The translations under genes and the position numbers were made by a program. Under the pieces are notes generated by a model. The model was not told the origin of the DNA and made no database searches. It was given only the letters and a program-made list of their open reading frames with translations. A stretch of DNA of 64,000 nt from Sparassis latifolia (lineage: Eukaryota; Basidiomycota; Agaricomycetes; Polyporales; Sparassidaceae), in contig CM031560.1 in assembly GCA_018466975.1 (NCBI GenBank), positions 310,001-374,000 of the forward strand. The letters are read 5' to 3'. Of the stretch, positions 9,201 through 45,290 are shown piece by piece; the stretch's first letter is position 1; the number at the start of each line of letters is the position of its first letter.

Positions 9201-9239
9201 CCAGAGCCCCATTTCTGACGCAGCTGCACCTTAACTTTC

Positions 9240-12200
9240 ATGAGCGCAAGAGGAAATCAGGGTAACCGCGGAGGTCGCGGAGGTCACGGTCGTGGAAGAG
9301 GAAGAGGCAGCCCTGCGACCTCTATCTCAGGATCTGATGCCGGGCTCGGTGGCAGAGGTGGCGGTGGCGGCAACGGCAGCGGCAATCCAAGAGGACAAAG
9401 ACCCAGTGGACGTGGCGGCGGATTTATCGGAAGACCCTCCAGAGCAAGTTTTACCAGAGGCTTCGACGCTCGTGGACGTGGAACTGGTGGCGAGGGAAAG
9501 CAGCTGAACGTGCGGGATGAGATGCCTATGCGCCCTGGCTGGGGCACTCTGGGCACGGAGACGAAAGTTAGGGTGAACTCCTTCGCTGTGAAGATATTGA
9601 AGAACATCGTATATGATTATCATGTCGCTATCACTCCGTACCAGGTAGGTGCGGGGCGCAGAGCTCGCATCTTTGAAATCTTGGAGAGTAACCCTATCTA
9701 TGCTCCCCACGTGCGCTACATTGCCCATGACCGTAGTCAGAGACTTGTCTCTGCAACGAAGCTCCCCCAACCTCTCTCGATACCCGTTCCTTACGTTGAG
9801 GAGGGGCAGACGTCTCCGCTACCGAATGCTCTCGAGTTCACAGTGGAGATAAGGCTTATCCGTGAGCTCGACATGCGTCAGCTGAATGCGTAAGTTCAAA
9901 CATCTTCTCAAGGAATGAATCACTGGCGATACATTGTTCTAGTTACATGGATGGCCAACCAGACCATAGCGACGATGATACGGCTCCCTTGATATCCGCT
10001 TTGAATCTCATGTTACAGCAGCATGCAGCCTCGCATGGCACCCGCGTGGATAAAAACAGGTACTTCTTCCCGTCTTCAGGTCTTTATCCACTGGGCCCCG
10101 GGCTCGAAGCCTACAGGGGTTTTTTCATGTCAGTTCGCCCAACATACAAGCAGCTGATGGTGAACGTCAATGTCTGCATGAAGGCATTCTATACCCCTGG
10201 AAATCTCGCGGACGCGATGATTGCCTTCAACGGATCGACTGGAGGAATGCCCAGGTCATTTACCCGGGGCCTGAAAGTGTCGACGAGATACCTCGGTTAC
10301 ACGAGAAAGAGAACGGTCATGGGTATCATGAGCACTACTGCTCGTCAGATGCGTTTCCAGTGCGATGAGCTGAATGGCGTAGTCACGATGGAAGAGTATT
10401 TTCAGCGACGTGAGTGTGGTCTCTTGTTACGGTTGGTCTGGTTTAATTCCATCAAATACAGGGTATGGAATTCACCTCGATCATGCCCATGACCTTCCGG
10501 TCATCAACGTCTCCGGCATGACATGCCTCCCTGCGGAATTATGTGAAATATTGCCCAATCAGCCATACCGTGGCAAGTTGGGCGACCGCGAGAATGCTGA
10601 GATGACCAAATATGCCTGCAATCCACCGGACACGAATGCAGAAATCATCGTTAACCAGGGATTTCCAGCTTTGGGCCTACGTTGGTATGCACAGGGAGTG
10701 CCTCTGCAGGGGTTTAGAATCACTCTGAACCCGGAGATGGTTACTGTTCCCAGCCGTGTCCTTCCTGCTCCGAGAATCACGTACAGGTCCGGGAATTGTG
10801 CAGTTCACGATGGGAGTTGGAACATCCTGAATGTTAAATTCCATGTCGGGTCGGATCTTAGGAACTGGGCTGTTCTCCTAGTTCAGGATGGAGGTGACGA
10901 GGAGTTCACTGGAACGAACGATCCTGCTCTGCGGCAGTTTATAGAAATGTTCGCTGCGAAGTGCAGATCGAGCGGGATGAATGTTCCGACCCTGCCCACC
11001 TCCATCACAACGTCCCGATTGCCACATCCGCGGGACGACCCATCAAGGACTCAGGCATTGGAGCAGATTCGGAAGGCAATTACACAGAACCTTGATAGAA
11101 ACAACAAACCCAGCTTCGTGCTTGTTTTACTATCCAAGATCGACAGCTATATTTATCCCGGCATCAAAAAACTCTGTGATACTGTCCTTGGCATACATAC
11201 CGTCCACATGCAGCTGAAAAAGGCGAGAGGCAACTGGAACAACCAAGATCAGTACTTCTCGAACGTTGCCCTTAAAGTGAATGCCAAGCTTGGGGGTACG
11301 AACCACTTGCTGGATCCGCAGTCGATGAGGTGGTTGACGGAGAAGAGGACGATGCTCGTTGGTATCAGCCTCACGGATCCTGGGCCTACAAGCAAGCTCT
11401 GTGCTCTATCGATCGTTGCTGTGGTCGCCAGTGTGGACAGCGATTTCGTACAATTTCCTGCCAGCTTGCAACCCCAGAAGTCCAATTTGAACAAAGGTGC
11501 CAAAGAGGTGTGTGCGGTGCATTGGCTTATGCTAGTAGTAGCCGTTCACTGACGAGACTCTACTTTAGATGGTTGAGAAACTTGATGACCTGATGGTAGA
11601 GCGACTACTCCTCTATCAAAAGAAAAATAAGTCTCTCCCAGAACGTATCTTTGTATATCGCAATGGTGTCTCAGAGGTTAGTACTGCACTTTTCACACGC
11701 AGTGCAATACTAATGACAATCCATACAGGGCGAGTATAATTTGGTCCTTCAGCATGAACTTCCGAAACTTCTGGTTGCCTTCAAGAAGGTATCACCGGAG
11801 GCGCCATACCGCCCGAAGTTAACGATCACGGTGTGCGGCAAGACATGCCGCACTCGTATAATTCCCATGGATTATAATGTCATGGACCACAAGGGCAATA
11901 CCCAGCCTGGAACAGTCATTGACAAGGGTATAACTAATGTGTACAGTAACGACTTCTACTTGCAGGCTCGTTGCGATGCATATATCTAGAGTCATACAAA
12001 GGGCTGACCACTTTGGTAGGCGCACCCTGGACTGCAAGGCCATGCCCACCCCAAGCACTATGTGGTCATTTATGATGAGCAGCACTGGTCCGCTGACCAG
12101 ATACAGCAGGGGACACACACGACCAGTTATGGTTACGTGTGTGCGACCAAGGCTGTGAGCTTGGTGCCCCCGGCTTACTACGCTGCTCTTGCGTGCAAGA

Positions 12201-22030: not shown

Positions 22031-22656
22031 AGCGTGTGCCGCTCGCCTCCAGTGACGACGTAGGTACGTGAGATCCCACTGGCCCTCGCCCAGTCAGTGG
22101 AAGTACGTACACGTGGCCGTGCCCCCATGCCATCACACGCGCACACGCACCGGGGGCAGTACGGTATTGCCTGCAGAGGCGAACTCCTGGCCTGGCGTAC
22201 TTAGGGAACATAGACGGCGGGAGTATCAATCCGGAGTAGGGATGCTAGCATTGTGGCGGAGTTTGGAGTGCCAAGGACATGGGGGAGGAGACGAGGAGGG
22301 CGGTGTATCTGGTAGGTGGCCCGGTACACGACGAGTAACTGGCGCCGATCCGAGATCGGGGTTGGTAAACGAATATTATAATATCTTTACCCGAGCGGTC
22401 GTAGAGACTGCAGCGGTGTCGATGGTAATAACGTGGAAAGCAGACTGCATGCCAATTACAGCCGTATGCATCTGTCGTCAGAGATTATTTAGCCTCGCGA
22501 TCCGGATGGTCGTCCACAGATCAAGATTGCGCTCGTGTCAGAAGTAATTTAATAAACGCGCTACGAGCGCTTATTTGGCCAATCATAGTCGTGACTCGTC
22601 TACGCTATCCTATCAACTCATGCCGACCGAGGCGACCGTACTCCCCCCATTACGGT

Positions 22657-22679
22657 TGCCGAGGATGGACAGGTCTATT
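22657..22679 (+). repeat. Terminal inverted repeat, left outer end
   Basis: These 23 bases (TGCCGAGG...TCTATT) are identical to 27,863-27,885 and are the reverse complement of 33,148-33,170. The TG..CA ends are those used by retroviral-type integrases and related DDE elements. Immediately outside lies TACGGT, which is the reverse complement of ACCGTA next to the right end. Confidence 0.85.
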
Positions 22680-23524
22680 CCCCAAGTTCTCGACACAAAT
22701 CCCAGTTGCGGATCAATTGTTTGATGCAATAAAATAAATATTCAGCCGACTGCCGTGGCTCGTGGTCAATTAGACGCCTGCCAAGCCGGCTGTTTCCCAC
22801 AACAGGGGCAGCACTGCGCAGAGGCGTGGTACTGAGTGGGCCTCTTCTTCTGAGCGATTTGATGAGTTTGCTTCAGCTTTCGTCACTTGTGCGTACTTTC
22901 TACGGACTGCTTTCCCCGTATCAATTTTTGTGCTCTCATCATCACTTTGGGGCTATTGGGGTGACCGCCAAAAAATTGCCATTCGTCATGTTTTCGATCA
23001 CCACACCCCCGTTGTGGAACGTGGTGTTTCAGTTGCTCGGATCGACCCTTAGTCCTACGAGAGACAGTGACTGCATGTCTCTCGAGATTCAGATGGTCTA
23101 GCTACACCGGTAAGTGTTGTGTCTATCACTGTTTGTGTGCTACTAGTACTCCCAAGGTGCCTACGAGTTTGGAAGTATGTCTAGGAGCCCCAGTACCACA
23201 TAGGTGCAGAATCGAGGTAGGTAGCATTGTTATTGCATTATTGACTCCATTGCTCGTAGCTTCGTGGCGGCCCGTGCAAACAGTGGCTGCAATTGGTTAC
23301 CCGTGGTCTAACGAGTCGCCGTCATCCTGCGTGTCCACCTGCTCGCTTCGTATCCGCGGCGCACTCGCAATATCTCATTGGCCTCGTCCTCCTCCTCGTG
23401 GTGCTGCGGATTGCAGGGTCTTGTTTCAATGTCAATGCTGGCTAATGGGAGTGTTCTCGTTGGGGAGTATATAAACACTTGTTGCAGTTTTACTATTCAA
23501 TAGATCTCTTTCTCACCTCTGGCA

Positions 23525-26193
23525 ATGAGCCGGTGTAAGGGCTGTGGTCAAAAGTATGCACATTTGAGTGCTGATTACTGTGGGAAGTGTCACAAGAAGT
23601 GTACAGCAGCAACACCCCGAGAACGAGACGAAATTGATGTAAGTCTACTAAATCCGTACATGAGATATATGACTGAAGGGCACATTAGCTACTATCGCAA
23701 TGCAATCAATGCGGCGACGTCTTTCCCAACCTGGATAGCTCAACATGCGGGCACTGCCAAAATATCAGCAAGGCCGAGTCGGTCGTAGAACGCGAGCGTG
23801 TAGAGGTCTGCATTCACACCTTGAGCTTAAGATACTAAACAATGACCGTACTTTGCAGAAGTTACCACGTTGTGACGGCTGCGGTGTCGTATATCCGTTT
23901 CTGACGGGGAAGCTTTGCGGCTCGTGCGTGGAGCCTGCCCCAACATAGATGGTTAGTAGGGCACCCAATCTTGGTTGTCAACTGTGTAGACACTCACCCT
24001 TTATCCGAACAACTAGTCACCAGCCAAATCAAAGAGCGCACCCACACCTTCGAGAAGCGTGCATCCGAGCACCGACTCAATCAGAACCCATCAAATGCAA
24101 TTGCCTCTCAGAAGCTGAAGAATGTGAAGGAGAAGGTCGGGCAGCTCAAGCAGCAAAGAACCGGGGAGTCATTCTGGGTCGCACTCAAGATTTATCAGGT
24201 TTCGGCGGCGAACAAGCCTAAACAAGTATGCCCCCTGACTCTTCGTGTTCACCTTCTGACTCGAGTTTCTTCAGCTGGCAGGAACACAGTCGGCATGAGT
24301 AAGGTTTGATGGGAACCAAAGAGCGGAGGACATGATCAATCACCTTCTGCAGAAGGGATTGGAAATGTTCTTAATACTTCCAGAGAATACCAGAGTTGGG
24401 CTCAGACCTTTGGTCATGACCCATTTCCGACGGTAAATTTGCATCTACGATCTTGTCTCAGCAGCTTGTACTTACTGTGTTGCAACTGCCGCAGGAATAA
24501 TGTCTCATTCAGCGTGCCGAAGGGTCGAGCTACGTACACACTAGAGCTTGATAAGCTAGCTACGGACAGCGTTCAGCAGCTCTTCGATCGTCTCGTCCGC
24601 GATCAATATATGACAGTGACGGATGTGAAGGACAAAACCATCCCAATTAACCTGAATATTTTCACCGATTCTGAGGTACTACTTGGCTGTATGCATGTCT
24701 CTAACTACTGACAAAAAATGGAAGGTGCAATCCAAGGATGAAGGTGACATAGAGGTCAATGACACCTTCCCAAGGCATCCCCACATGTCTCGGAACCTGC
24801 GTTCTGCGAAATCAATTGTAGCCAAGCATAGCGTGAACATTCCATCATCTGGTGAGTAGTACAATTTGAATGTGTCAATTTTTCGCGAGGTTGATAGCAT
24901 ATTGTATATAGGTCTCAAGAGCAGCATTCGGTCGGGGCAGCCTCGCTACATCAGTGCTTTCCGTGTGCCCACTGCAGTATCTGTACCTCTCGAGTTCGAG
25001 CCTGTCTACTTCAAGGCAACAACTTGTGTTGCGACTGATGGTGGAGAGGTCAACCTGCTTCGCTCTGACATTTCTGATCAAATATATGTTGTAAAAGGGT
25101 GGCAGAAGCATCTTGAGAGTGATGTTCCAAAGAATGGGTGGCTGGGGAAGGGAGGTTCAAAGTTCTGTTTCCAGGTATGTCGCTACCGTGCCACACGTCA
25201 TTACGACTAATCATGTCATGTCGTCCGATTTAGGCAAACTTTCATAATCAGCCATACGCTGTCTTTCAGATCGGCCCACTGGGAAGGGAATGGGCGCAGG
25301 AGTCTGAGCATAAGAATGACCTCATGAACGAGCTCAAACTTACTGTACAAGGCCAGTACTTCATAGATTCCTTCTATCGGCGTGCGGAGGCATATGGCTT
25401 TATGGATGCACTTCCCAGTATGTAAATTTTTTTGTGCAATTTGTGAATGTTGGAGTACTCACAGCATGACCATTTATTCAGAAATTCGTTTCAATTGTGC
25501 CAATGCCTTTCTCGGAGAAGTCACTCCCGAGGATGAGTATAAGATTCCACTCCACCCAAGCGCGGCTCTGAAGGAGCCTGAGAGTTATACTTTGATGTTC
25601 AAAATGTTCCTGGGAGTGCCGCTTATCCGCAAGGATGATGGATACAGCGAGGAGAAATTTTCGGGTGCCTTGGGCGCAGGCTCCAATACAGACATGCACA
25701 TAGGCCGTGTTCTTGATGCCTTTGCTCATCATGTTGTGGTTGACTCGCAATCTTCATTTGTCTTGGTTGATTTGCAAGGTACGTCATCAGAATGTGATGC
25801 AGAACACTGTTTCGCTGAGTGCGACATGGGATTTTTGTAGGATTTGTCAGCCGAAATGAAGACGAAGTTATACTGTTCGACCCTCAAGCACATACTCAGT
25901 ACGTGATCCCTGATTGTGCTTTACATACTGCTACATGACGTGTTTGTAGTGACCGAGCTGGCAGAAGGACAGGGTATTGGGATAGAGGTTTGCAGGCAAT
26001 CAACGGCTTCAAGGAGAAACACAAGTGCAATGTTGTGTGTTGCGAGCTGGGCTTACCATCGTTCACTGACGGAGCTGGCAATGCATGCACAAAAAGGCCT
26101 ATAACAAAGGATCAGTCTGACAGTGCGCATCACCGAGTGAAGAGACAGCGCATTGACATAGTAGACATTATAGACCTATCTACGACGGAATAG
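23525..26193 (+). pseudogene. Zinc-ribbon/alpha-kinase gene, left copy, one frameshift
   Basis: This is the same multi-exon gene as the right-arm copy described at 29,634-32,302, in mirror orientation. One base is missing in a C run near 23,938 (four C, against five in the right copy). The frame therefore runs into TAG just after the third zinc-ribbon ('VEPAP'). Downstream exons, including the alpha-kinase core and the C terminus 'IVDIIDLSTTE', are otherwise identical in the stretches compared. The other differences noticed (for example near 25,190 and 25,812) fall in introns. If the base loss is a sequencing error, this copy would be intact. Confidence 0.75.
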
Positions 26194-26211
26194 TGTACCA
26201 CCGCATAATGA

Positions 26212-27644
26212 CTACATAAGTGGGAGCATTGCTGAGAAAACCTCCCACACATTTTGCAGAGTCAGCTCGGACACCCAAGGAATCATAGACCACCTGTGCA
26301 TGCGTGCGTATGCGGGTTGACAAACTGAATCAGTTCTGCACCGCCAAGCTCCTCCATCATCTTGCTGACAATCTCAACATCAACAGGCTGGAGGCAATTC
26401 TCACCGCCATACCGTTTGTATAGGGTGTGCGCGATGTTAGGTGATACACCTGGCGGCAGCAGCTTACGGCGATCCTTCCTGACTTTGTGGTCATTAAGAT
26501 TGCGCGCAGTTTGTCTAGTTCCTTCTGTATGAGTCCGGGCCACAACCACTGCATGAGATCACTGGGAACATCAGTGAATTCATCACTACCGTGTCAAGGT
26601 CAAAACATAGCCACTCACTATTGGCGAGGATCCATTGGGTCGTACATATCTTGTCCGGCTTGCCAAAATACAATGACATTGTCACCCCATTCCAACCGCA
26701 AGCGCAACCATCCACGCTCAATGGTTGTGTTGTGTACACTTGGCAGGAAGCGATGTGCTAGTAACTCGGAGAGGAAGATCCGGAACAAAGGCCTCTCTAT
26801 CAATAAATAAGATTAGAGTGTCAGTACACAAGAGCTTGATGACTCACCTCAATGCATTTGTGAGCCCATACACCGTCGTCGTCTCGCTCCGCGATCTGTT
26901 GTCGATTGGATTGGCATACCTGGTGAATTCTCAATACATGCAGAAGCTGTCAAGCTACTCAACTTACCACCCAAATCACGAATCAACTTCAAGTAAAGAT
27001 AACCAGTGACATGCTTAAATCGGTTATTCGGAACAACTGAAAGACTGAGCCACTTCCCGGACCACACATCGCGAATGCCCCAGATTGGAAAGCCGATCTT
27101 CACGAGCTTGTCATGCCCGTCCGCACTCCATTCATGGTGGGGTCCAAGCGCGATGAGAGGGTGCGATGCTTCTTCTTACTTGTCGGGTGCGCGGCTTGAA
27201 GCCTTCTGGATCCAGTCGTTTCATTTCCGAAATGATCCAATCCCTAGGTAGCATGAAGTTGAACAGACATACAATTAGTTTATAATCTACACACCTCATA
27301 ATATGGGTACCGGTGTCATTTGCAAGCTCCTCTTTGAGTCTGCGCGGACCGTGTAGTCGATTAGGATGCTTGGCCATCTGGTTGAGCAGGAGCTGCCTCT
27401 TCTCACTCTCAGGCATGAGGCGTGTTGTTTTGCCACTACTGTGAAGGCCTAGGCTGGTTCGTCTCCGATCGATCATCTTGTAGCTGTAATTGTGAGCGTT
27501 CAGCCTTCGTAGGGTACTTGTGACAACCTACCTCATCTTGATACCATACTCCTCCGCAACAGATCAGCAATAACCTTGGCGCTCCCAATGTTTCGGCGAT
27601 GGTAATCTCGCAGCACGCGGCGACACGGAGGTCATTTGGTTGCG
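26212..27644 (-). pseudogene. DDE integrase-type transposase, left copy, multiply frameshifted
   Basis: This is the mirror copy of the right-arm gene at 28,034-29,615. At least seven small deletions relative to that copy break the frame. They include one after 'EGFK' (near 27,195), one at the second catalytic Asp (near 26,893), a two-base loss near 26,773, one near 26,503 and two near 26,300-26,318. Exon 1 with the ATG is missing: between about 27,645 and 27,795 the left arm carries about 150 bases unrelated to the corresponding 220 bases of the right arm. It cannot make an active enzyme as written. Confidence 0.8.
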
Positions 27645-28033
27645 CTGCAGGCGAATTAGTGTCGGCGGCGCTTCCTCGTTCCGAAGCTGTTGGCAAATAG
27701 GTGCAAACAACCAGATAATGATCAGTTTGCACGTCTCCCGAGCTTCGAATTCAATACGTGCAAACAACGCGTTGGGGTATTTGACCCTCTTCACCTGCCT
27801 GATGCACATGCTTGATCGCAGATGCTTTGCCTCGAAACTTGAGTACTGTCACAGACGGTCCATGCCGAGGATGGACAGGTCTATTACTACTCAAGTTTCA
27901 GGCAAAGTATCAAGCGATCAAGCATGTGCATCAGGCAGGTGGGCCGAGGCCAGAACTCAATCTAGATCTTGGCAGATGCCGAGCAATGCCCAGCTACTAG
28001 TTCTGCTCTCGTTGCCCATGTCACAGTGCGACA

Positions 28034-29615
28034 ATGTCTGAGATGTTGGCAGAAGATGACAAGCCTCTGAACTCCTTCAACAGGAATCCGCAAGGTAAAA
28101 ACCAATTCAAGGATTGTCGTACGTGTTTCTAGTATGTTATCAGTGCCGCTGACACTAATTCGCCCTGCAGCGCAACCAAATGACCTCCGTGTCGCCGCGG
28201 TGCTGCGAGATTACCATCGTCGAAACATTGGGAGCGCCAAGGTTATTGCTGATCTGTTGCGGGAGGAGTATGGTATCAAGATGAGGTAGGTTGTCACAAG
28301 TACCCTACGAAGGCTGAACGTTCACAATTACAGCTACAAGATGATCGATCGGAGACGAACCAGCCTAGGCCTTCACAGTAGTGGCAAAACAACACGCCTC
28401 ATGCCTGAGAGTGAGAAGAGGCAGCTCCTGCTCAACCAGATGGCCAAGCATCCTAATCGACTACACGGTCCGCGCAGACTCAAAGAGGAGCTTGCAAATG
28501 ACACCGGTACCCATATTATGAGGTGTGTAGATTATAAACTAATTGTATGTCTGTTCAACTTCATGCTACCTAGGGATTGGATCATTTCGGAAATGAAACG
28601 ACTGGATCCAGAAGGCTTCAAGCTGCGGCACCCGACAAGTAAGAAGAAGCATCGCACCCCTCTCATCGCGCTTGGACCCCACCATGAATGGAGTGCGGAC
28701 GGGCATGACAAGCTCGTGAAGATCGGCTTTCCAATCTGGGGCATTCGCGATGTGTGGTCCGGGAAGTGGCTCAGTCTTTCAGTTGTTCCGAATAACCGAT
28801 TTAAGCATGTCACTGGTTATCTTTACTTGAAGTTGATTCGTGATTTGGGTGGTAAGTTGAGTAGCTTGACAGCTTCTGCATGTATTGAGAATTCACCAGG
28901 TATGCCAATCCAATCGACAACAGACTGCGGGAGCGAGACGACGACGGTGTATGGGCTCACAAATGCATTGAGGTGAGTCATCAAGCTCTTGTGTACTGAC
29001 ACTCTAATCTTATTTATTGATAGAGAGGCCTTTGTTCCGGATCTTCCCCTCTCCGAGTTACTAGCACATCGCTTCCTGCCAAGTGTACACAACACAACCA
29101 TTGAGCGTGGATGGTTGCGCTTGCGGTTGGAATGGGGTGACAATGTCATTGTATTTTGGCAAGCCGGACAAGATATGTACGACCCAATGGATCCTCGCCA
29201 ATAGTGAGTGGCTATGTTTTGACCTTGACACGGTAGTGATGAATTCACTGATGTTCCCAGTGATCTCATGCAGTGGTTGTGGCCCGGACTCATACAGAAG
29301 GAACTAGACAAACTGCGCGGCAATCTTAATGACCACAAAGTCAGGAAGGATCGCCGTAAGCTGCTGCCGTCAGGTGTATCACCTAACATCGCGTACACCC
29401 TATACAAACGGTATGGCGGTGAGAATTGCCTCCAGCCTGTTGATGTTGAGATTGTCAGCAAGATGATGGAGGAGCTTGGCGGTGCAGAACTGATTCAGTT
29501 TGTCAACCCGGCATACGCACGGCATGCACAGGTGGTCTATGATTCCTTGGGTGTCCGAGAGCTGACTCTGCAAAATGTGTGGGAGGTTTTCTCAGCAATG
29601 CTCCCACTTATGTAG
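28034..29615 (+). CDS. DDE integrase-type transposase
   Basis: Seven exons (28034-28094, 28171-28285, 28334-28522, 28574-28851, 28900-28972, 29024-29203, 29261-29615) give 416 residues with all splice phases in register. The integrase core shows the three acidic residues in context: Asp in 'HHEWSADGHDKL', Asp in 'STTDCGSE' and Glu in 'NTTIERGW'. The spacing is D-x58-D-x42-E, as in the rve/retroviral-integrase fold. Upstream, 'AVLRDYHRRNIGSAKVIADL' and 'YGIKMR' resemble a helix-turn-helix DNA-binding part. Agaricomycete genomes carry many proteins annotated as integrase core domain of this type. The TG..CA termini fit this enzyme, so it is the likely transposase of the element. The start ATG was chosen because it splices in frame to exon 2. 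Confidence 0.88.
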
Positions 29616-29633
29616 TCATTATGCGGTGGTACA

Positions 29634-32302
29634 CTATTCCGTCGTAGATAGGTCTATAATGTCTACTATGTCAATGCGCTGTCTCTTCACTCGGTGATGC
29701 GCACTGTCAGACTGATCCTTTGTTATAGGCCTTTTTGTGCATGCATTGCCAGCTCCGTCAGTGAACGATGGTAAGCCCAGCTCGCAACACACAACATTGC
29801 ACTTGTGTTTCTCCTTGAAGCCGTTGATTGCCTGCAAACCTCTATCCCAATACCCTGTCCTTCTGCCAGCTCGGTCACTACAAACACGTCATGTAGCAGT
29901 ATGTAAAGCACAATCAGGGATCACGTACTGAGTATGTGCTTGAGGGTCGAACAGTATAACTTCGTCTTCATTTCGGCTGACAAATCCTACAAAAATCCCA
30001 TGTCGCACTCAGCAAAACAGTGTTCTGCATCACATTCTGATGACGTACCTTGCAAATCAACCAAGACAAATGAAGATTGCGAGTCAACCACAACATGATG
30101 AGCAAAGGCATCAAGAACACGGCCTATGTGCATGTCTGTATTGGAGCCTGCGCCCAAGGCACCCGAAAATTTCTCCTCGCTGTATCCATCATCCTTGCGG
30201 ATAAGCGGCACTCCCAGGAACATTTTGAACATCAAAGTATAACTCTCAGGCTCCTTCAGAGCCGCGCTTGGGTGGAGTGGAATCTTATACTCATCCTCGG
30301 GAGTGACTTCTCCGAGAAAGGCATTGGCACAATTGAAACGAATTTCTGAATAAATGGTCATGCTGTGAGTACTCCAACATTCACAAATTGCACAAAAAAA
30401 TTTACATACTGGGAAGTGCATCCATAAAGCCATATGCCTCCGCACGCCGATAGAAGGAATCTATGAAGTACTGGCCTTGTACAGTAAGTTTGAGCTCGTT
30501 CATGAGGTCATTCTTATGCTCAGACTCCTGCGCCCATTCCCTTCCCAGTGGGCCGATCTGAAAGACAGCGTATGGCTGATTATGAAAGTTTGCCTAAATC
30601 GGACGACATGACATGATTAGTCGTAATGACGTGGGCACGGTAGCGACATACCTGGAAACAGAACTTTGAACCTCCCTTCCCCAGCCACCCATTCTTTGGA
30701 ACATCACTCTCAAGATGCTTCTGCCACCCTTTTACAACATATATTTGATCAGAAATGTCAGAGCGAAGCAGGTTGACCTCTCCACCATCAGTCGCAACAC
30801 AAGTTGTTGCCTTGAAGTAGACAGGCTCGAACTCGAGAGGTACAGATACTGCAGTGGGCACACGGAAAGCACTGATGTAGCGAGGCTGCCCCGACCGAAT
30901 GCTGCTCTTGAGACCTATATACAATATGCTATCAACCTCGCGAAAAATTGACACATTCAAATTGTACTACTCACCAGATGATGGAATGTTCACGCTATGC
31001 TTGGCTACAATTGATTTCGCAGAACGCAGGTTCCGAGACATGTGGGGATGCCTTGGGAAGGTGTCATTGACCTCTATGTCACCTTCATCCTTGGATTGCA
31101 CCTTCCATTTTTTGTCAGTAGTTAGAGACATGCATACAGCCAAGTAGTACCTCAGAATCGGTGAAAATATTCAGGTTAATTGGGATGGTTTTGTCCTTCA
31201 CATCCGTCACTGTCATATATTGATCGCGGACGAGACGATCGAAGAGCTGCTGAACGCTGTCCGTAGCTAGCTTATCAAGCTCTAGTGTGTACGTAGCTCG
31301 ACCCTTCGGCACGCTGAATGAGACATTATTCCTGCGGCAGTTGCAACACAGTAAGTACAAGCTGCTGAGACAAGATCGTAGATGCAAATTTACCGTCGGA
31401 AATGGGTCATGACCAAAGGTCTGAGCCCAACTCTGGTATTCTCTGGAAGTATTAAGAACATTTCCAATCCCTTCTGCAGAAGGTGATTGATCATGTCCTC
31501 CGCTCTTTGGTTCCCATCAAACCTTACTCATGCCGACTGTGTTCCTGCCAGCTGAAGAAACTCGAGTCAGAAGGTGAACACGAAGAGTCAGGGGGCATAC
31601 TTGTTTAGGCTTGTTCGCCGCCGAAACCTGATAAATCTTGAGTGCGACCCAGAATGACTCCCCGGTTCTTTGCTGCTTGAGCTGCCCGACCTTCTCCTTC
31701 ACATTCTTCAGCTTCTGAGAGGCAATTGCATTTGATGGGTTCTGATTGAGTCGGTGCTCGGATGCACGCTTCTCGAAGGTGTGGGTGCGCTCTTTGATTT
31801 GGCTGGTGACTAGTTGTTCGGATAAAGGGTGAGTGTCTACACAGTTGACAACCAAGATTGGGTGCCCTACTAACCATCTATGTTGGGGGCAGGCTCCACG
31901 CACGAGCCGCAAAGCTTCCCCGTCAGAAACGGATATACGACACCGCAGCCGTCACAACGTGGTAACTTCTGCAAAGTACGGTCATTGTTTAGTATCTTAA
32001 GCTCAAGGTGTGAATGCAGACCTCTACACGCTCGCGTTCTACGACCGACTCGGCCTTGCTGATATTTTGGCAGTGCCCGCATGTTGAGCTATCCAGGTTG
32101 GGAAAGACGTCGCCGCATTGATTGCATTGCGATAGTAGCTAATGTGCCCTTCAGTCATATATCTCATGTACGGATTTAGTAGACTTACATCAATTTCGTC
32201 TCGTTCTCGGGGTGTTGCTGCTGTACACTTCTTGTGACACTTCCCACAGTAATCAGCACTCAAATGTGCATACTTTTGACCACAGCCCTTACACCGGCTC
32301 AT
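29634..32302 (-). CDS. Triple zinc-ribbon alpha-type protein kinase
   Basis: The first exons are 32302-32189, 32138-32022 and 31968-31875. Each encodes one CxxC-x11-CxxC motif (CKGC..CGKC, CNQC..CGHC, CDGC..CGSC), likely zinc-binding ribbons. About 200 residues of mixed helical sequence follow. The C-terminal half is an alpha-kinase (MHCK/eEF2K-type) domain: 'DAFAHHVVVDSQSSFVLVDL', 'ILFDPQAHTHD' and 'GFKEKHKCNVVCCELGL', the last being the zinc-ligand tail of this fold. Alpha-kinases phosphorylate Ser/Thr, classically in helical substrates. The product is about 600-650 residues and ends in a basic, serine-rich tail. The junction near 31,520-31,600 could not be resolved: the obvious splice sites put a stop in frame, and a weak GTGTTC donor (55-base intron) restores it. 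All other junctions are clean. Its place inside a transposon suggests a role in mobility or in host control, but that is inference. Confidence 0.85.
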
Positions 32303-33147
32303 TGCCAGAGGTGAGAAAGAGATCTATTGAATAGTAAAACTGCAACAAGTGTTTATATACTCCCCAACGAGAACACTCCCATTAGCCAGCATTGACATTG
32401 AAACAAGACCCTGCAATCCGCAGCACCACGAGGAGGAGGACGAGGCCAATGAGATATTGCGAGTGCGCCGCGGATACGAAGCGAGCAGGTGGACACGCAG
32501 GATGACGGCGACTCGTTAGACCACGGGTAACCAATTGCAGCCACTGTTTGCACGGGCCGCCACGAAGCTACGAGCAATGGAGTCAATAATGCAATAACAA
32601 TGCTACCTACCTCGATTCTGCACCTATGTGGTACTGGGGCTCCTAGACATACTTCCAAACTCGTAGGCACCTTGGGAGTACTAGTAGCACACAAACAGTG
32701 ATAGACACAACACTTACCGGTGTAGCTAGACCATCTGAATCTCGAGAGACATGCAGTCACTGTCTCTCGTAGGACTAAGGGTCGATCCGAGCAACTGAAA
32801 CACCACGTTCCACAACGGGGGTGTGGTGATCGAAAACATGACGAATGGCAATTTTTTGGCGGTCACCCCAATAGCCCCAAAGTGATGATGAGAGCACAAA
32901 AATTGATACGGGGAAAGCAGTCCGTAGAAAGTACGCACAAGTGACGAAAGCTGAAGCAAACTCATCAAATCGCTCAGAAGAAGAGGCCCACTCAGTACCA
33001 CGCCTCTGCGCAGTGCTGCCCCTGTTGTGGGAAACAGCCGGCTTGGCAGGCGTCTAATTGACCACGAGCCACGGCAGTCGGCTGAATATTTATTTTATTG
33101 CATCAAACAATTGATCCGCAACTGGGATTTGTGTCGAGAACTTGGGG

Positions 33148-33170
33148 AATAGACCTGTCCATCCTCGGCA
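33148..33170 (-). repeat. Terminal inverted repeat, right outer end
   Basis: This is the reverse complement of 27,863-27,885 and 22,657-22,679, ending ...CCTCGGCA. The flanking bases ACCGTAC continue directly into a copy of the 'ccattctccgcccctg' host repeat, which places the insertion junction to the base. Confidence 0.85.
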
Positions 33171-35235
33171 ACCGTACCCATACCATTCTCCGCCCCTGTG
33201 ACTGAAGGTGTCTGGTGTGATAAGGGTGGGGCAGGTGTCTTTGCAAACCTAATGGGGCCTGAGAATGGTGAGTTCAACCTGTGCAGTGGGTCTTTGACCT
33301 ACAGCAACGATATCCATGCCTCGCACCTCGTTGAATGGGTGCCCTGCATAAAGCGCAGGTATTCGATGGTCTCTCAGGGTGGTCTGCCCTCCGACAACAC
33401 GCAGGGATCTTCCGTGCTGTGGTCTCGTTTACTGAGGATTCATTGGTCGTCGTACGTCGCCGCTGTACCTCCGTCTATGTTCTACGCCAACTTCGAACGC
33501 TCACAGTTCACTAACGCCGGCGTTGTTTCTTCTGCCTCCTCCAGGCAGTACGTACGTTGACCCTGTCCGCCACATTTTTTTTGACCGCTGAGCCTCGGAT
33601 GAAGTAGCAAGCCCGAGCTGTCGAGACTGCTCGTGTTAACGCTAGTAACGCCACCGACACAGAAGAGAATATTTGGTAGCGCGACGAGCCAATACTCATT
33701 GCGATCGGCCCGATAATGCATTGCACCCTTTCTCAAATTCCGCTTCTCCTCAGGTGCTCAAATTTTGACGACTAGCGTTTGCGCGTTTTCAATGGCCTTT
33801 TCATTTTCCGGCCCAGGTGCGTTAGCTGACGCGTCCTAGTTCCTCTCTCAACCTCGTCGTGCGCCCTGCTGATCGGACACTCACTCCAGGTTGTGCTGGA
33901 TGACGATTTGACATCGAAGACGCTCGCTGTCTCATCGCCGATCTCTTCAAGGGCGCGCTAGCCGCCCGAAGCCTGACTGGCGATCACAATCGAGAAACTA
34001 GACGTTCTAACACTCCGAGTCCTGCGGATCATGTTCGTTATCAGATCTCCGACCTGTCCAGCACCTGTCCGTGGTTGTATCAACATACGACACCTCGGCG
34101 CTCCTCCCAACAACACTCCTACGCACCCAAAGTTGTCGTCGGTCATCTCAAAATCAATTCATCTTTCGAAGACTATCTGATCGGATCGGGATCTTTATGC
34201 GTCTGTGTATTTCTTACTCAACCGCGTGTCTATATCCCAGCGCAAGTAGCACACAGTGCCGTTCCCCGCATTGGTGCGGTACCCATCGCGCCGGGCTACC
34301 GCTGCCGAAGGGCCGTATCCAACATGTACCATGATCAAGTATTGTCATCATGGACGGTCGTTCAAGCTTAAGTCATCATGCATTATTATGCATGCCATAG
34401 CCACCTCTCAGACGGGGAGATCCCGGCCAGCACCCAGAGCGAATAACCATGGTGGTTTACGTCCTCCGTACGTCCTCGAATGCTGAAGCAGATCCAGGAC
34501 CTAGCCCTGCAGTCACATATGCAGGAACGTACGCAGTCCTCGCCGCACCACCACTCCTCCCGACTGCGCCATCCTGTACGCGTGCGTGCGTACGTCGCCC
34601 TTCGATATTCGGCATCGACGAACTCGAGCGTGGTGATCGTGTCAGAAAGCGGATCCGGCTTGAGGATCCCTCGCCCTACATTTGCATGCAGTAAGTACCT
34701 GCATGAGCCGAACCGAGCAGCGCCGTTAATCCTCCGATGGCGACGTCAGCACACGAGATCCCACTAAGTGCAAGCACATACACGTCGCCGTGTCCCCATC
34801 CCATCACACGCACACGCGCACTCGGGCGCAGTGCCATCGCCACGATATTACTGGCTGAGGCGAACGTGTCTCGTGGAAGACTGCGGGCCAGGCATGCTGC
34901 TAGAGAGCATAGAAGGTCGGCGGGAGCCGCAACCCTGAGTACGGATGCTGTCATTATGGTAGAGTTTTGTGTGTCAAGAACATGGCGGAGGAGACGGGTG
35001 GAGAAGACGAGGAAAGCGGTGTATCTGGTAAGTCGCCCGGTACACGACGTCCGAGCACCTGGCGCAGGTTCGGTGTTGGTGAACAAATATTTTAATATCT
35101 TTGCCCGAGTCTATCGAAAATAATTAGCTGGAAAGCCGGGGGGGATACGCGCGCCAATTAGAGCCGTATGTCGTCAGTGAGTACTTGAGTAGTCTTGCAC
35201 GCCAGCGCAGGAGGGACAGTCGTCTACAGATCGAG

Positions 35236-41520: not shown

Positions 41521-41639
41521 ATTGCACGTTGGCAATACTTCCATTAATAGCGTTGACGAGCTGGAGGCACCTTAGTCAGGTATAAACAGGATAGCTGAAA
41601 TATGCACATTCCCCAGGAATACTCACCTGGTACGACCCT

Positions 41640-42345
41640 GGGCACGGGCATGTATGGAAATGAGGCGCCAGAGGCGGGAGGCATGTCACGTAGTAGGCGC
41701 GTGATCGTGACAGACGCGAGTCGCCACGGCCCGGCTACTCCGAGTCGCGAGTCCCTCCCTTTGTGCACTCGCCATCCCCGCACAACGACCTTGCAGTGAT
41801 TTCGAGTTACACCGTCCAATGTCCTCGCTATCAAATCATCATGAAGTCCGCAAATGACTACGGATGGTCAGGTATCCCTGGGCCCACCTCGAGGCCGAAA
41901 GGTATGCATGATTTAATGCTTCTACTAGTGCACAAACAGGACACCTTGCCACACTCCTCGCGACATCACCCCTACCCACTCAAGGTGTTAGCCGGCTCGC
42001 CCGCTGGAGGAGGTGTAGATTCTCAAATTATCAGCTCGCATCTCAATCCGAATTGACCTCCAGAGCCCCGACGCCGACTATGGCTGTGACGACACCTCTC
42101 GGATCTCTTTCTCAGTGAATTCATTTACGGCGAAAGCGAGGACGTCGATTTCGGCGCACCCGTTTCCACTTCTGCAGCTACACCCTCGCCGCCGCCGTCA
42201 CCCCGCTCTTCGAGCCTGCGCCCAAGCACGAGCCCAAACGCTCCGTCTTCCTCCCCGCCGAGACGCAGCAGCCAGAGACCTCCGCGTCGCCGTCATCCAC
42301 GGAAGATGCCCGTTCGCAGTCCAATCGTCGACTGGAAGTCCTTTC
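41640..42345 (+). pseudogene. Zn2Cys6-regulator relic, copy at unit 2
   Basis: The N-terminal coding block ('SSYTVQCPRYQI', near 41,805-41,840) and the Ser/Pro-rich part ('cccaagcacgagcccaaac', 42,215) are both present and colinear with 21.1-21.9 kb. Several frame shifts separate them, and the zinc-cluster end is missing because the sequence passes directly into the 'ccattctccgcccctcc' block at 42,371. Confidence 0.5.
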
Positions 42346-42509
42346 AGCGACGAAGCCTACCGTCCCCCCACGCCATTCTCCGCCCCTCCGACGCGCTGGT
42401 GTAGTCGACACCCACGCTACATCCGAATCTAGCGCTTTTGTCATACCATGGTGTACCTTCGTTGGCGTGCCGTATAGGGTCGGGTATAGGATAAGGGTGC
42501 TGGAGGTTT

Positions 42510-45290
42510 CGTCGAAATTCTAAAGATGCATGTGAACAGTGAGTTTTTTTCTCAGCGAGGTTGAGTCCAGCGGCATATACAGCTGACCCCCTGGCGAGGT
42601 CGGAAGTGTGACCTCCACGCAAGTCTAGGGGACTGTCGTCCTGAGTCTATTGTCAAAGCCACGCTGGCATGGAGAAGGCGATTCAACCGGTGCGTCTTTG
42701 AACCACAGCGGTGATATCGGTGCCTTGTACCTCATTGTAAGGGTGCCCCTCGTACAGCGCAGGTATTTGAAGGCTTTCCAAGGGCAGCGTGCCCTACGAC
42801 CGACGTGCGAAGAGATCTTCCGTGCTATGTTCTCATTTACTGAGGATACTTTCATCTTTCGTACGTCGTTGCTGCACTTCCTTCTAGTTTCTATTGAAAA
42901 CCTCGGACGCTTACAGCTCGCTGAAGTCCGGCGTCGTTTCCTCCCTCCGGTACGTACCTTGACTCTGCACGCATAATGAACGCTGAGCCTCCGATGAACT
43001 AGGAAATCCCAACTGTAAAGCCTGGCTGTGTCAACTCCGGTATCGCCGACGCGGAGACGGGAGAGAAGGTCTCGTAGCACTACATGGCATGACGAAAAAC
43101 GTGATTACTACATGCTCAAGAAATCTCAATATTTGTACGTCATCCCTACTTTCTTTGGCTGCATATTGATATCGGTACTGATACTGGTACATGCTACAGC
43201 ATTTGGTCTTGTCGCCTTCTGGCGATGGCACGCATCTTGACGTACATATCCCATCCCGAGCTAGTACGTATTGACACCCCTCCGATCGAGGGAAGGTCTG
43301 CGAACAGTCAGGGGTCGCGCCGATACAAACTCTGGCAAGATGGATGATAGCGATAGGTGGCACGACAAACGACGTGAGACCTTCGTGCTCTGTACGATAA
43401 TTCGAAGCTCACGGTTTCCAAGGTCACGCTCCACATCACCGTGCTCGAGCGCATACTCCGCGCCAGGTGTTATACAGTACTAATACCGGTCAGGTGTTTC
43501 GCCGTTCGGACACTTGGGATCCGTCCGTATCTGAAGTCCACTCAATTCGAGTCAAGCTGTTCGACCCGAGGTGCCGTTACGATTTCTCTGCCAGAAATTT
43601 GACTGGTGACGGCTCCCCTACCAGTATTATCCATTGCCGGGCGTATCTCTGCCTTCAGCTTCCGTCCCATCTCCTCTTGTGTGATTCGGGCGCCTTCCGC
43701 GGCCGCGGCCAAAGTTCTCTCAGCCTCCTCTTCCATAGCCCCCGCTGCTTCTTGCTTTCTCGGCTGTCCTGCTGTCCTTCTACCCAGTGCTTGTCCTCGT
43801 TTGTGTGCCTCTTTTTTCATCTTTTTTTTCACAATGTGCATCTCAGTTTTCGCGTGATCTGCCGCCTCTGCCTTTGGGTCTTCCTTTTCGCTTCGTTCAC
43901 AAAACGCTACTCCTCGTCCGCCTTCTATTTCTCTTCATCCGAGTGACGCGTCTCTTCCTCAATACGGTGGCGCTCTGGCTCCTCTGCGCGCCCTATCATA
44001 GCGCCTCGCCGCGCACTTATCTCGTCTCCTCTTCTCAGCACGCCATCGATCTCCCTCCACGTGCTGGCGCTCTTCGTCTGCGCGTTCTATATTCACCACG
44101 CGCTCTGCGCCAATTGTCGTGCCTCGTCCCCGTGGCATCACTCATCTCGGCCTGGCATTTCTCGCACTCGCCCTGCTCGTGGCGGCGATGCTCCTCTCGT
44201 ATGCACCCTTCTAGCTTGTGCGTAATGTTATCTCTTAAACTGGCTCTCCTGGACAATCAAAGCTGCGAAGGAGACATACCGTAGCCACGAGCTGCCCTCA
44301 CATGTCAGATCGAAAGCCAATGGGAGAACGGCAGGAATCCCCCGTTCTCATTGCAAAGACAGGACATGATTTGCGGACTTACAGAGGGCCGCTGACCTAG
44401 GTACTGGGTGCGAGGAGGTCGTCTCCGTAGTGAGGTGGACCTGAGCGGGAGTTCATAGATAATGTATTATGTCGCAAGTATTACAGGAAGCTTTGGTTCA
44501 ATTCACTAAACCGCGTTGTGCTTGGGGGATGCAGAAAAGGGTGAACGGCCGGTGTGCAAGTAGCCTCTAATGTGTAATACATCGCACGTTCTGAGGAATT
44601 ACTGGGACAAACGCGATCATGAACCCGCTGCAATGTGAGCTTAGGCGGATATTGACGCACCACGCAGGTGACTGATTTCATTCGAGACAGCCCTGGCAGT
44701 ATTCTGAAGCTCGGTGTAGTTCAACAGGGATGTGACGAGGCACGAGATACGTAACGTGCAATGAATTAACGGAGAAGTCGTAACCCTCACCACCAGTATA
44801 TCGCGCATGATCTTACATCGAAATATATTGGAGGCCGGCGTTGTCCACCGGAAAAAATGGCAGACAAAATAACATGTTGTCGAAACCGCGGAGGGATCCA
44901 AGTAGGACACACGATGAGCGCTGAGCATGCATGGGAGGTCGATGAACGAAACTCATGTCAAATCTTCACCTAATCTGTGAACCAGACGACCGAGCGTTGC
45001 ACAGAGAACAGCCAAAATTCAGATCAGAGAATAGGATCTGTGCAACATACCGTGTAACTCCCGAACACCGACATGTAATCGGCTAATAGAATGATTCACT
45101 AAATTGGGGACAAGGTCATGCTGACCGGAGGGCCCAGGACAATCAATCGTGATAGATATGCGCCCCAGACTTCTGAGACCGGGACATACTCAGTGAGACG
45201 TCGTGCGCAGGGTGTAGAACTTGTGGAAAAGACCTGCCAAGGAAGTAGATGAGCATTTGCATGCATGAGACCAGCACTTGCAAATTAGAG
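42510..45290. other. Decayed unit sequence and a purine-asymmetric stretch; no supported gene
   Basis: At 43,030-43,080 a diverged copy of the 'gtaacgccaccgacacag' landmark occurs. From about 43,620 to 44,260 the minus strand is purine-rich and encodes Glu/Lys/Arg-rich pieces in all three frames ('ERTLAAAAEGARITQEEMGR', 'ERADEERQHVEGDRWRAEKR'). This suggests a decayed coiled-coil gene or low-complexity sequence. Nothing recognisable lies at 44.3-45.3 kb. Confidence 0.35.

Follow-up and report, generated by a model that had tools for sequence, protein, structure and literature searches.

A zinc-ribbon/alpha-kinase gene travels with an integrase-type transposase gene in a probable IS3EU-type transposon of Sparassis latifolia

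Fungal IS3EU transposons are described in the text of PMC12730594 as having TAYGG..CCRTA ends, terminal inverted repeats (TIRs) of >30 bp and 6-bp target-site duplications, and in that of PMC10045372 as having TA..TA ends and duplications that are 'usually 6 bp'. In all TET+ IS3EU families, which come from rusts and Tuber indicum, the former source (2025) describes oppositely oriented transposase and alpha-kinase genes with a TET/JBP gene lying in between. The pairing of a transposase with an alpha-kinase gene is in general already in print there (PMC12730594), and the first-pass annotation of the locus reported here, which knew of no description of such an element, was mistaken in treating its type as undescribed; no other description was found in the literature covered, with subscription papers and Repbase reports outside its scope. 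The text of PMC4469406 reports that the alpha-kinase family is highly expanded in rusts, which are one group where published TET+ IS3EU elements occur, and PF02816 appears in a table row of PMC5295586.

The window, by which we mean the whole 64,000-nucleotide stretch of S. latifolia DNA analysed here (contig CM031560.1, positions 310,001 to 374,000), contains 23-bp arms at 27863-27885 and 33148-33170 that are perfectly complementary, where dinucleotide shuffles of the window give a chance expectation of 0.00 matches at ≤3 mismatches. Searching the genome with this 23-bp terminus returned 17 sites at the same threshold, against 0 for a reversed-pattern control; three sites lie in the window, eight in four other paired units, and six are unpaired. 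The first-pass annotation had taken the arms as TG..CA ends, and while their complementarity stands and is beyond chance, the real ends of the element read 5'-TACGGTTGCCGAGG..., six bases further outward, the full terminus being TACGGT followed by TGCCGAGG and the element ending TA..TA. At 16 of the 17 termini the TG is preceded by TACGGT, TACAGT or TATGGT (one of the latter two replacing TACGGT at three sites), the exception being the terminus at 27863, which rules out TG..CA ends of the retroviral or IS481EU style. The window pair and the units L019, L021 and L024 each begin and end with TACGGT..ACCGTA, L020 having TACAGT at one end, and the TIR of L019, located on C7, extends over 38 bp at 94.7% identity, and so exceeds 30 bp.

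Direct duplications lie immediately outside TA..TA in all five paired units, namely CCCAT for the window pair, CAAAG for L019, GTAGG for L020, GATG for L021 and GGAG for L024, giving a length of 5 bp in three units and 4 bp in two; as a control, left and right flanks of the five units were paired wrongly, and 0 of 20 such pairings shared ≥4 bp. In the window the identical CCCAT duplications (22646-22650 and 33177-33181, both forward strand) flank 22651-33176, and this interval, with two inverted copies inside it, is the mobile unit. The interval 27863-33170, which had earlier been proposed as the inserted unit, is ruled out since there is no duplication at 27863, and the second, inverted copy had been missed, as had a third terminus at 22657. 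L019 is a single, independently inserted copy of 5308 bp with both genes between intact ends, and it aligns with the window copy first noticed (copy 1) over 5308 columns at 98.6% identity. L020, L021 and L024 are 2429, 1763 and 981 bp in size and have the same ends as the element, with inverted repeats of 153-217 bp, and both of their ends match its kinase-side end (131-152 columns, 80-85%); none showed similarity to the integrase or kinase protein (tblastn, E 1). The sequences thus show directly the ends, the duplications, a second independent insertion, the gene content and linkage of the genes in two other species.

A diverged paralogous segment at 41596-43047 contains parts of both element flanks 371 bp apart with the element absent; since its left match stops 994 bp before the element and its right match starts 84 bp after, it provides only a rough parallel to an empty site. 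At 41596-42300 the left flank recurs with its order unchanged, and the right flank (window 33210-33480) has related segments elsewhere on C9 (C9:325569, 352672, 433871, 440109 and 449061), a local family spanning about 125 kb. On C7, the left flank of L019 (about 2792130) comes directly after TATAAAAGCA, possibly within a promoter. An Argonaute gene with ArgoN, ArgoL2, ArgoMid and Piwi matches also lies in the window (9219-11549), separated by about 11 kb from the transposon pair.

Judged from its sequence, the element is very probably an IS3EU-type (IS3/IS481-like) DNA transposon of ~5.3 kb, with TACGGT..ACCGTA ends, 4-5 bp duplications and two convergent, intron-bearing genes for an integrase-type DDE transposase and a zinc-ribbon/alpha-kinase; this assignment rests on the termini, the gene order and the opposite orientation, the integrase similarity being to rva_4/integrase-core. 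Copy 1 occupies 27863-33176 on the forward strand, which adds 6 bp at the right end to the element as first annotated. Its putative transposase gene (28034-29615, forward strand; rva_4, PF24764, E 7.1e-07) has seven exons and encodes 416 aa with no internal stop, and its kinase gene (29634-32302, reverse strand) has 12 exons and 681 codons, one of them an in-frame TGA. The integrase stop codon (29613-29615) and that of the kinase end at 29615 and 29634, with 18 bp between them. Two convergent multi-exon genes, a D-x58-D-x42-E integrase and a protein with three CxxC-x11-CxxC motifs and an alpha-kinase domain had all been proposed in the first-pass annotation, and each of these readings was borne out.

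The integrase motif is formed by D164, D223 and E266, and in an alignment of 18 proteins D164 and E266 were invariant and D223 was at least 90% conserved. We saw no HHCC domain in the integrase by eye, and its profile gave nothing meaningful against the PDB. A protein search found 185 relatives, the best 120 of which were examined by name, and the organisms among the matches listed are presumably Agaricomycetes; when viral contigs were scanned with alignment A2, two stretches fitted the pattern and neither encodes a relative. Three close integrase copies were found in the S. latifolia genome, each adjoining a kinase copy. Some ten further rva_4 loci are distant from both places with a PF02816 match, but as each of the two profile searches also missed the three known copies, this is no evidence of absence.

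In the copy 1 kinase, Alpha_kinase (PF02816) matched residues 540-631 at E 2.9e-13 (50.8 bits against a cut-off of 21.3), and the three CxxC-x11-CxxC motifs, counted by eye on the gene model, fall in exons 1-3 (31875-32302, reverse strand) with cysteines at C4/7/19/22, C43/46/58/61 and C82/85/97/100. Among four kinase relatives, one has two such motifs, two have one, and one, with an incomplete-looking model, has none. The copy 1 kinase also contains VDLQG, FDPQ and HKCNVVC, which we take to be the catalytic aspartates and zinc site of an alpha-kinase. These stretches align to myosin heavy chain kinase A (3lkm); DLQG and DPQ are kept in all five transposon-type kinases and the H-x-C-x3-C site in four, which argues against reading the protein as a degenerate, non-catalytic alpha-kinase that would serve transposition as a cofactor, binding DNA or protein through its zinc ribbons. 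We consider that reading possible, if doubtful. It draws on the zinc-ribbon cysteines, which recur in four of the five proteins, on the Pfam profile, which was matched only in its C-terminal part in three of the five, and on a stretch, placed by eye, where two other kinases of this genome (L067 and L068) read VAKCF and VAKRC and four transposon-type kinases read YAVFQ, YALLQ, YAIFQ or VAVFQ, the stretch being absent in the fifth. An ATP-binding lysine was not evident by eye in the N-lobe, which aligned to no solved chain, but the N-lobe alignment is unreliable, and this tells against the degenerate reading. An accessory or anti-silencing role is the one we favour for the kinase.

Copy 1 and a mirror-image partner form a double copy whose inverted repeat spans 22651 to 33176. 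Copy 2 (22651-27862), which comparison of the inverted repeats places on the reverse strand relative to copy 1, carries an alpha-kinase gene at 23525-26193 (forward strand) with an in-frame TGA and one one-base deletion, and an integrase pseudogene at 26212-27672 (reverse strand) with frameshifts and a replaced first-exon region. Both outer termini of the dimer, 22651-22679 in copy 2 (forward strand; TACGGTTGCCGAGGATGGACAGGTCTATT, placed by inverted-repeat and terminus comparison) and 33148-33176 in copy 1 (reverse strand), are kinase-side ends. The copies meet in a mirror centre read by eye as GTCCAT-GCCGAGG-ATGGAC (27858-27876), where the left end of copy 1 has GGTCCA in place of the six terminal bases. 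Since the kinase side faces outward at both ends and no target duplication exists except at the outer pair, either the dimer transposed whole, or fold-back copying within one insertion produced it and stopped in the identical terminal repeat.

It is rather unlikely that the double copy is an assembly error and not a real inverted dimer. Compared with copy 1, and beyond the replaced segment, the integrase half of copy 2 has 10 short deletions (8 of one base and 2 of two bases) and 7 substitutions, while its kinase half has 1 substitution, 1 insertion and 1 deletion; such a concentration of deletions is an unusual pattern for natural decay and speaks for an error, and the deletion-rich half could in part be consensus error. 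On the other hand, the left and right flanks differ in DNA and both touch the CCCAT duplication, and copy 2 contains a 119-bp segment (27674-27792) that is unrelated to copy 1 and matches C2:1699158-1699277 at 93%, DNA which a fold-back read would not supply.

None of the three two-gene copies is intact, each having at least one damaged gene: the kinase in copy 1, both genes in copy 2, and in L019 the integrase, which has two TGA codons. The in-frame TGA, which the first-pass annotation had not noted, interrupts the kinase in the window's two copies alike (in copy 1 at codon 186) and is absent from the C7 copy, whose kinase frame is open, though the stretch at DPQ is altered. The differences between copy 1 and L019 comprise 58 transitions, 39 of them at CpG, and 2 transversions, a pattern that would fit deamination of methylated CpG; substitutions number 51 over 3299 coding positions (counting two bases beyond the integrase stop) and 9 over 2000 non-coding ones. 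Between these copies dN/dS was 0.34 for the integrase (p 0.007), which looks constrained, and 0.86 for the kinase (5.5 synonymous and 16.5 nonsynonymous; p 0.61 on rounded counts). The near-neutral kinase divergence argues weakly against recent selection on this gene; the CpG bias between the copies leaves little weight on dN/dS, which offers no help to a claim that the kinase is under selection.

Both genes lie between paired termini in two of the five paired units, neither gene in the other three and the integrase by itself in none, so that in this genome both of the insertions that carry genes and are flanked by target duplications (CCCAT and CAAAG) include the kinase. A kinase protein search, in which the 7992 candidates sharing most words were scored, returned four proteins; in a second round with alignment A1, 7995 candidates were scored and none was returned, not even the alignment's own four members, so this round carries no information. 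Two of the four homologues have a neighbouring integrase. In Trametes versicolor, kinase P0001 (VTO73DRAFT_11838) and integrase P0054 (VTO73DRAFT_11837) have consecutive tags and equal contig sizes (262106), and the same holds in Antrodiella citrinella for kinase P0004 (EUX98_g6111) and integrase P0037 (EUX98_g6112; contig size 50162); the Psilocybe and Gautieria kinases had no integrase partner among the matches listed (120 of 185). When used as query against the S. latifolia genome, the Trametes kinase found only the same three kinase copies (15 exon matches). Given the C7 copy with both genes, the 0 of 5 integrase-only units and the linked pairs in two other fungi, the kinase is, as far as sequence can tell, a constituent gene of the mobile unit and not a chance passenger. 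The first-pass annotation had proposed as much, naming as contrary outcomes termini that enclose only the integrase, of which we found none, and kinases that never adjoin it elsewhere, where T. versicolor and A. citrinella gave the opposite. That a host kinase was captured once in this genome and carried passively, as its near-neutral divergence, its breakage in both window copies and the three kinase-less units with the same ends might suggest, is very improbable in view of the adjacent locus tags of kinase and related integrase in two further genera, the statement for rust and truffle elements in the text of PMC12730594, and the fact that the three kinase-less units also lack the integrase and so look like ordinary non-autonomous derivatives.

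A further locus, L067 (C9:220500-230400), has a different alpha-kinase exon at C9:224586-224789, 2.0 kb before a diverged integrase on the same strand (C9:226782-227862, 27-39% identity), and an open frame further upstream with cysteines resembling a zinc ribbon. It was considered as a second kinase-integrase element but, with same-strand genes and no matching pair of termini by eye, stays a lead; it is possibly an older or differently arranged one.

For the constituent kinase and its partner, we envisage that the transposase, if catalytic, would excise the element after binding its terminal repeats and insert it at target sites cut in a staggered fashion. The kinase would be an accessory protein travelling with the element, its likeliest targets being the transposase or a nuclear silencing protein, and might conceivably modify the transposase or chromatin proteins; the first-pass annotation had raised such modification, and also that the mobile kinase might account for alpha-kinase expansion in these fungi. 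A broader proposal, which we offer tentatively and which may well prove wrong, is that fungal IS3EU elements have long retained the zinc-ribbon/alpha-kinase as a second core gene, which counters host silencing or licenses the transposase and whose ATP site is altered or lost, that alpha-kinase expansion in rusts and mushrooms stems mainly from such element-borne genes, and that TET/JBP was a later addition to this two-gene core.

The ends, duplications and independent insertion show an alpha-kinase gene travelling in a mushroom-type transposon even without a TET/JBP gene, and they make it possible to test concretely whether fungal kinase families described as 'expanded' consist of transposon cargo annotated as host genes. 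Furthermore, the transition and CpG bias, as expected if the copies are methylated, makes an anti-silencing role of element-borne enzymes worth testing.

Compared with the IS3EU elements characterised in the text of PMC12730594 and PMC10045372, the Sparassis element shares TA..TA ends with TAYGG..CCRTA, a TIR of >30 bp and a DDE integrase-type transposase, but its duplications are 4-5 bp and not the usual 6 bp; since 'usually' is the source's word, such a difference tells against full membership but does not disqualify the element. With the TET+ IS3EU elements, as they are set out in print, it shares an alpha-kinase gene opposite to the transposase, and it differs from them in its mushroom-type host and in having no TET/JBP gene between transposase and kinase: none of the 48 genome matches to TET/JBP (PF12851) listed lies inside the window element or the C7 copy. 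Those 48 are exon-level matches at E 0.01 or better, 32 of them over the cut-off, and many have near-equal scores, as expected for transposon-borne copies. The fold-back double copy is a further difference, and so is the triple zinc ribbon, the text of PMC12730594 being silent on the N-termini of the published kinases. The alpha-kinases MHCK-A, TRPM7, eEF2K and ALPK1 resemble the transposon kinase in their C-terminal aspartates and zinc-site residues, which align, whereas the latter has an N-lobe not alignable to solved chains, no evident lysine and N-terminal zinc ribbons. KDZ and Plavaka elements with TET/JBP genes are likewise fungal DNA transposons with a passenger enzyme, although, in the account given in PMC12730594, their transposases belong to other families and the passenger is a dioxygenase. 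Finally, Styx of Zymoseptoria, which has four coding sequences and no kinase named inside the element in the text of PMC10853768, is similar in being called IS3EU-derived and in having tandem-inverted copies on the same chromosome arm.
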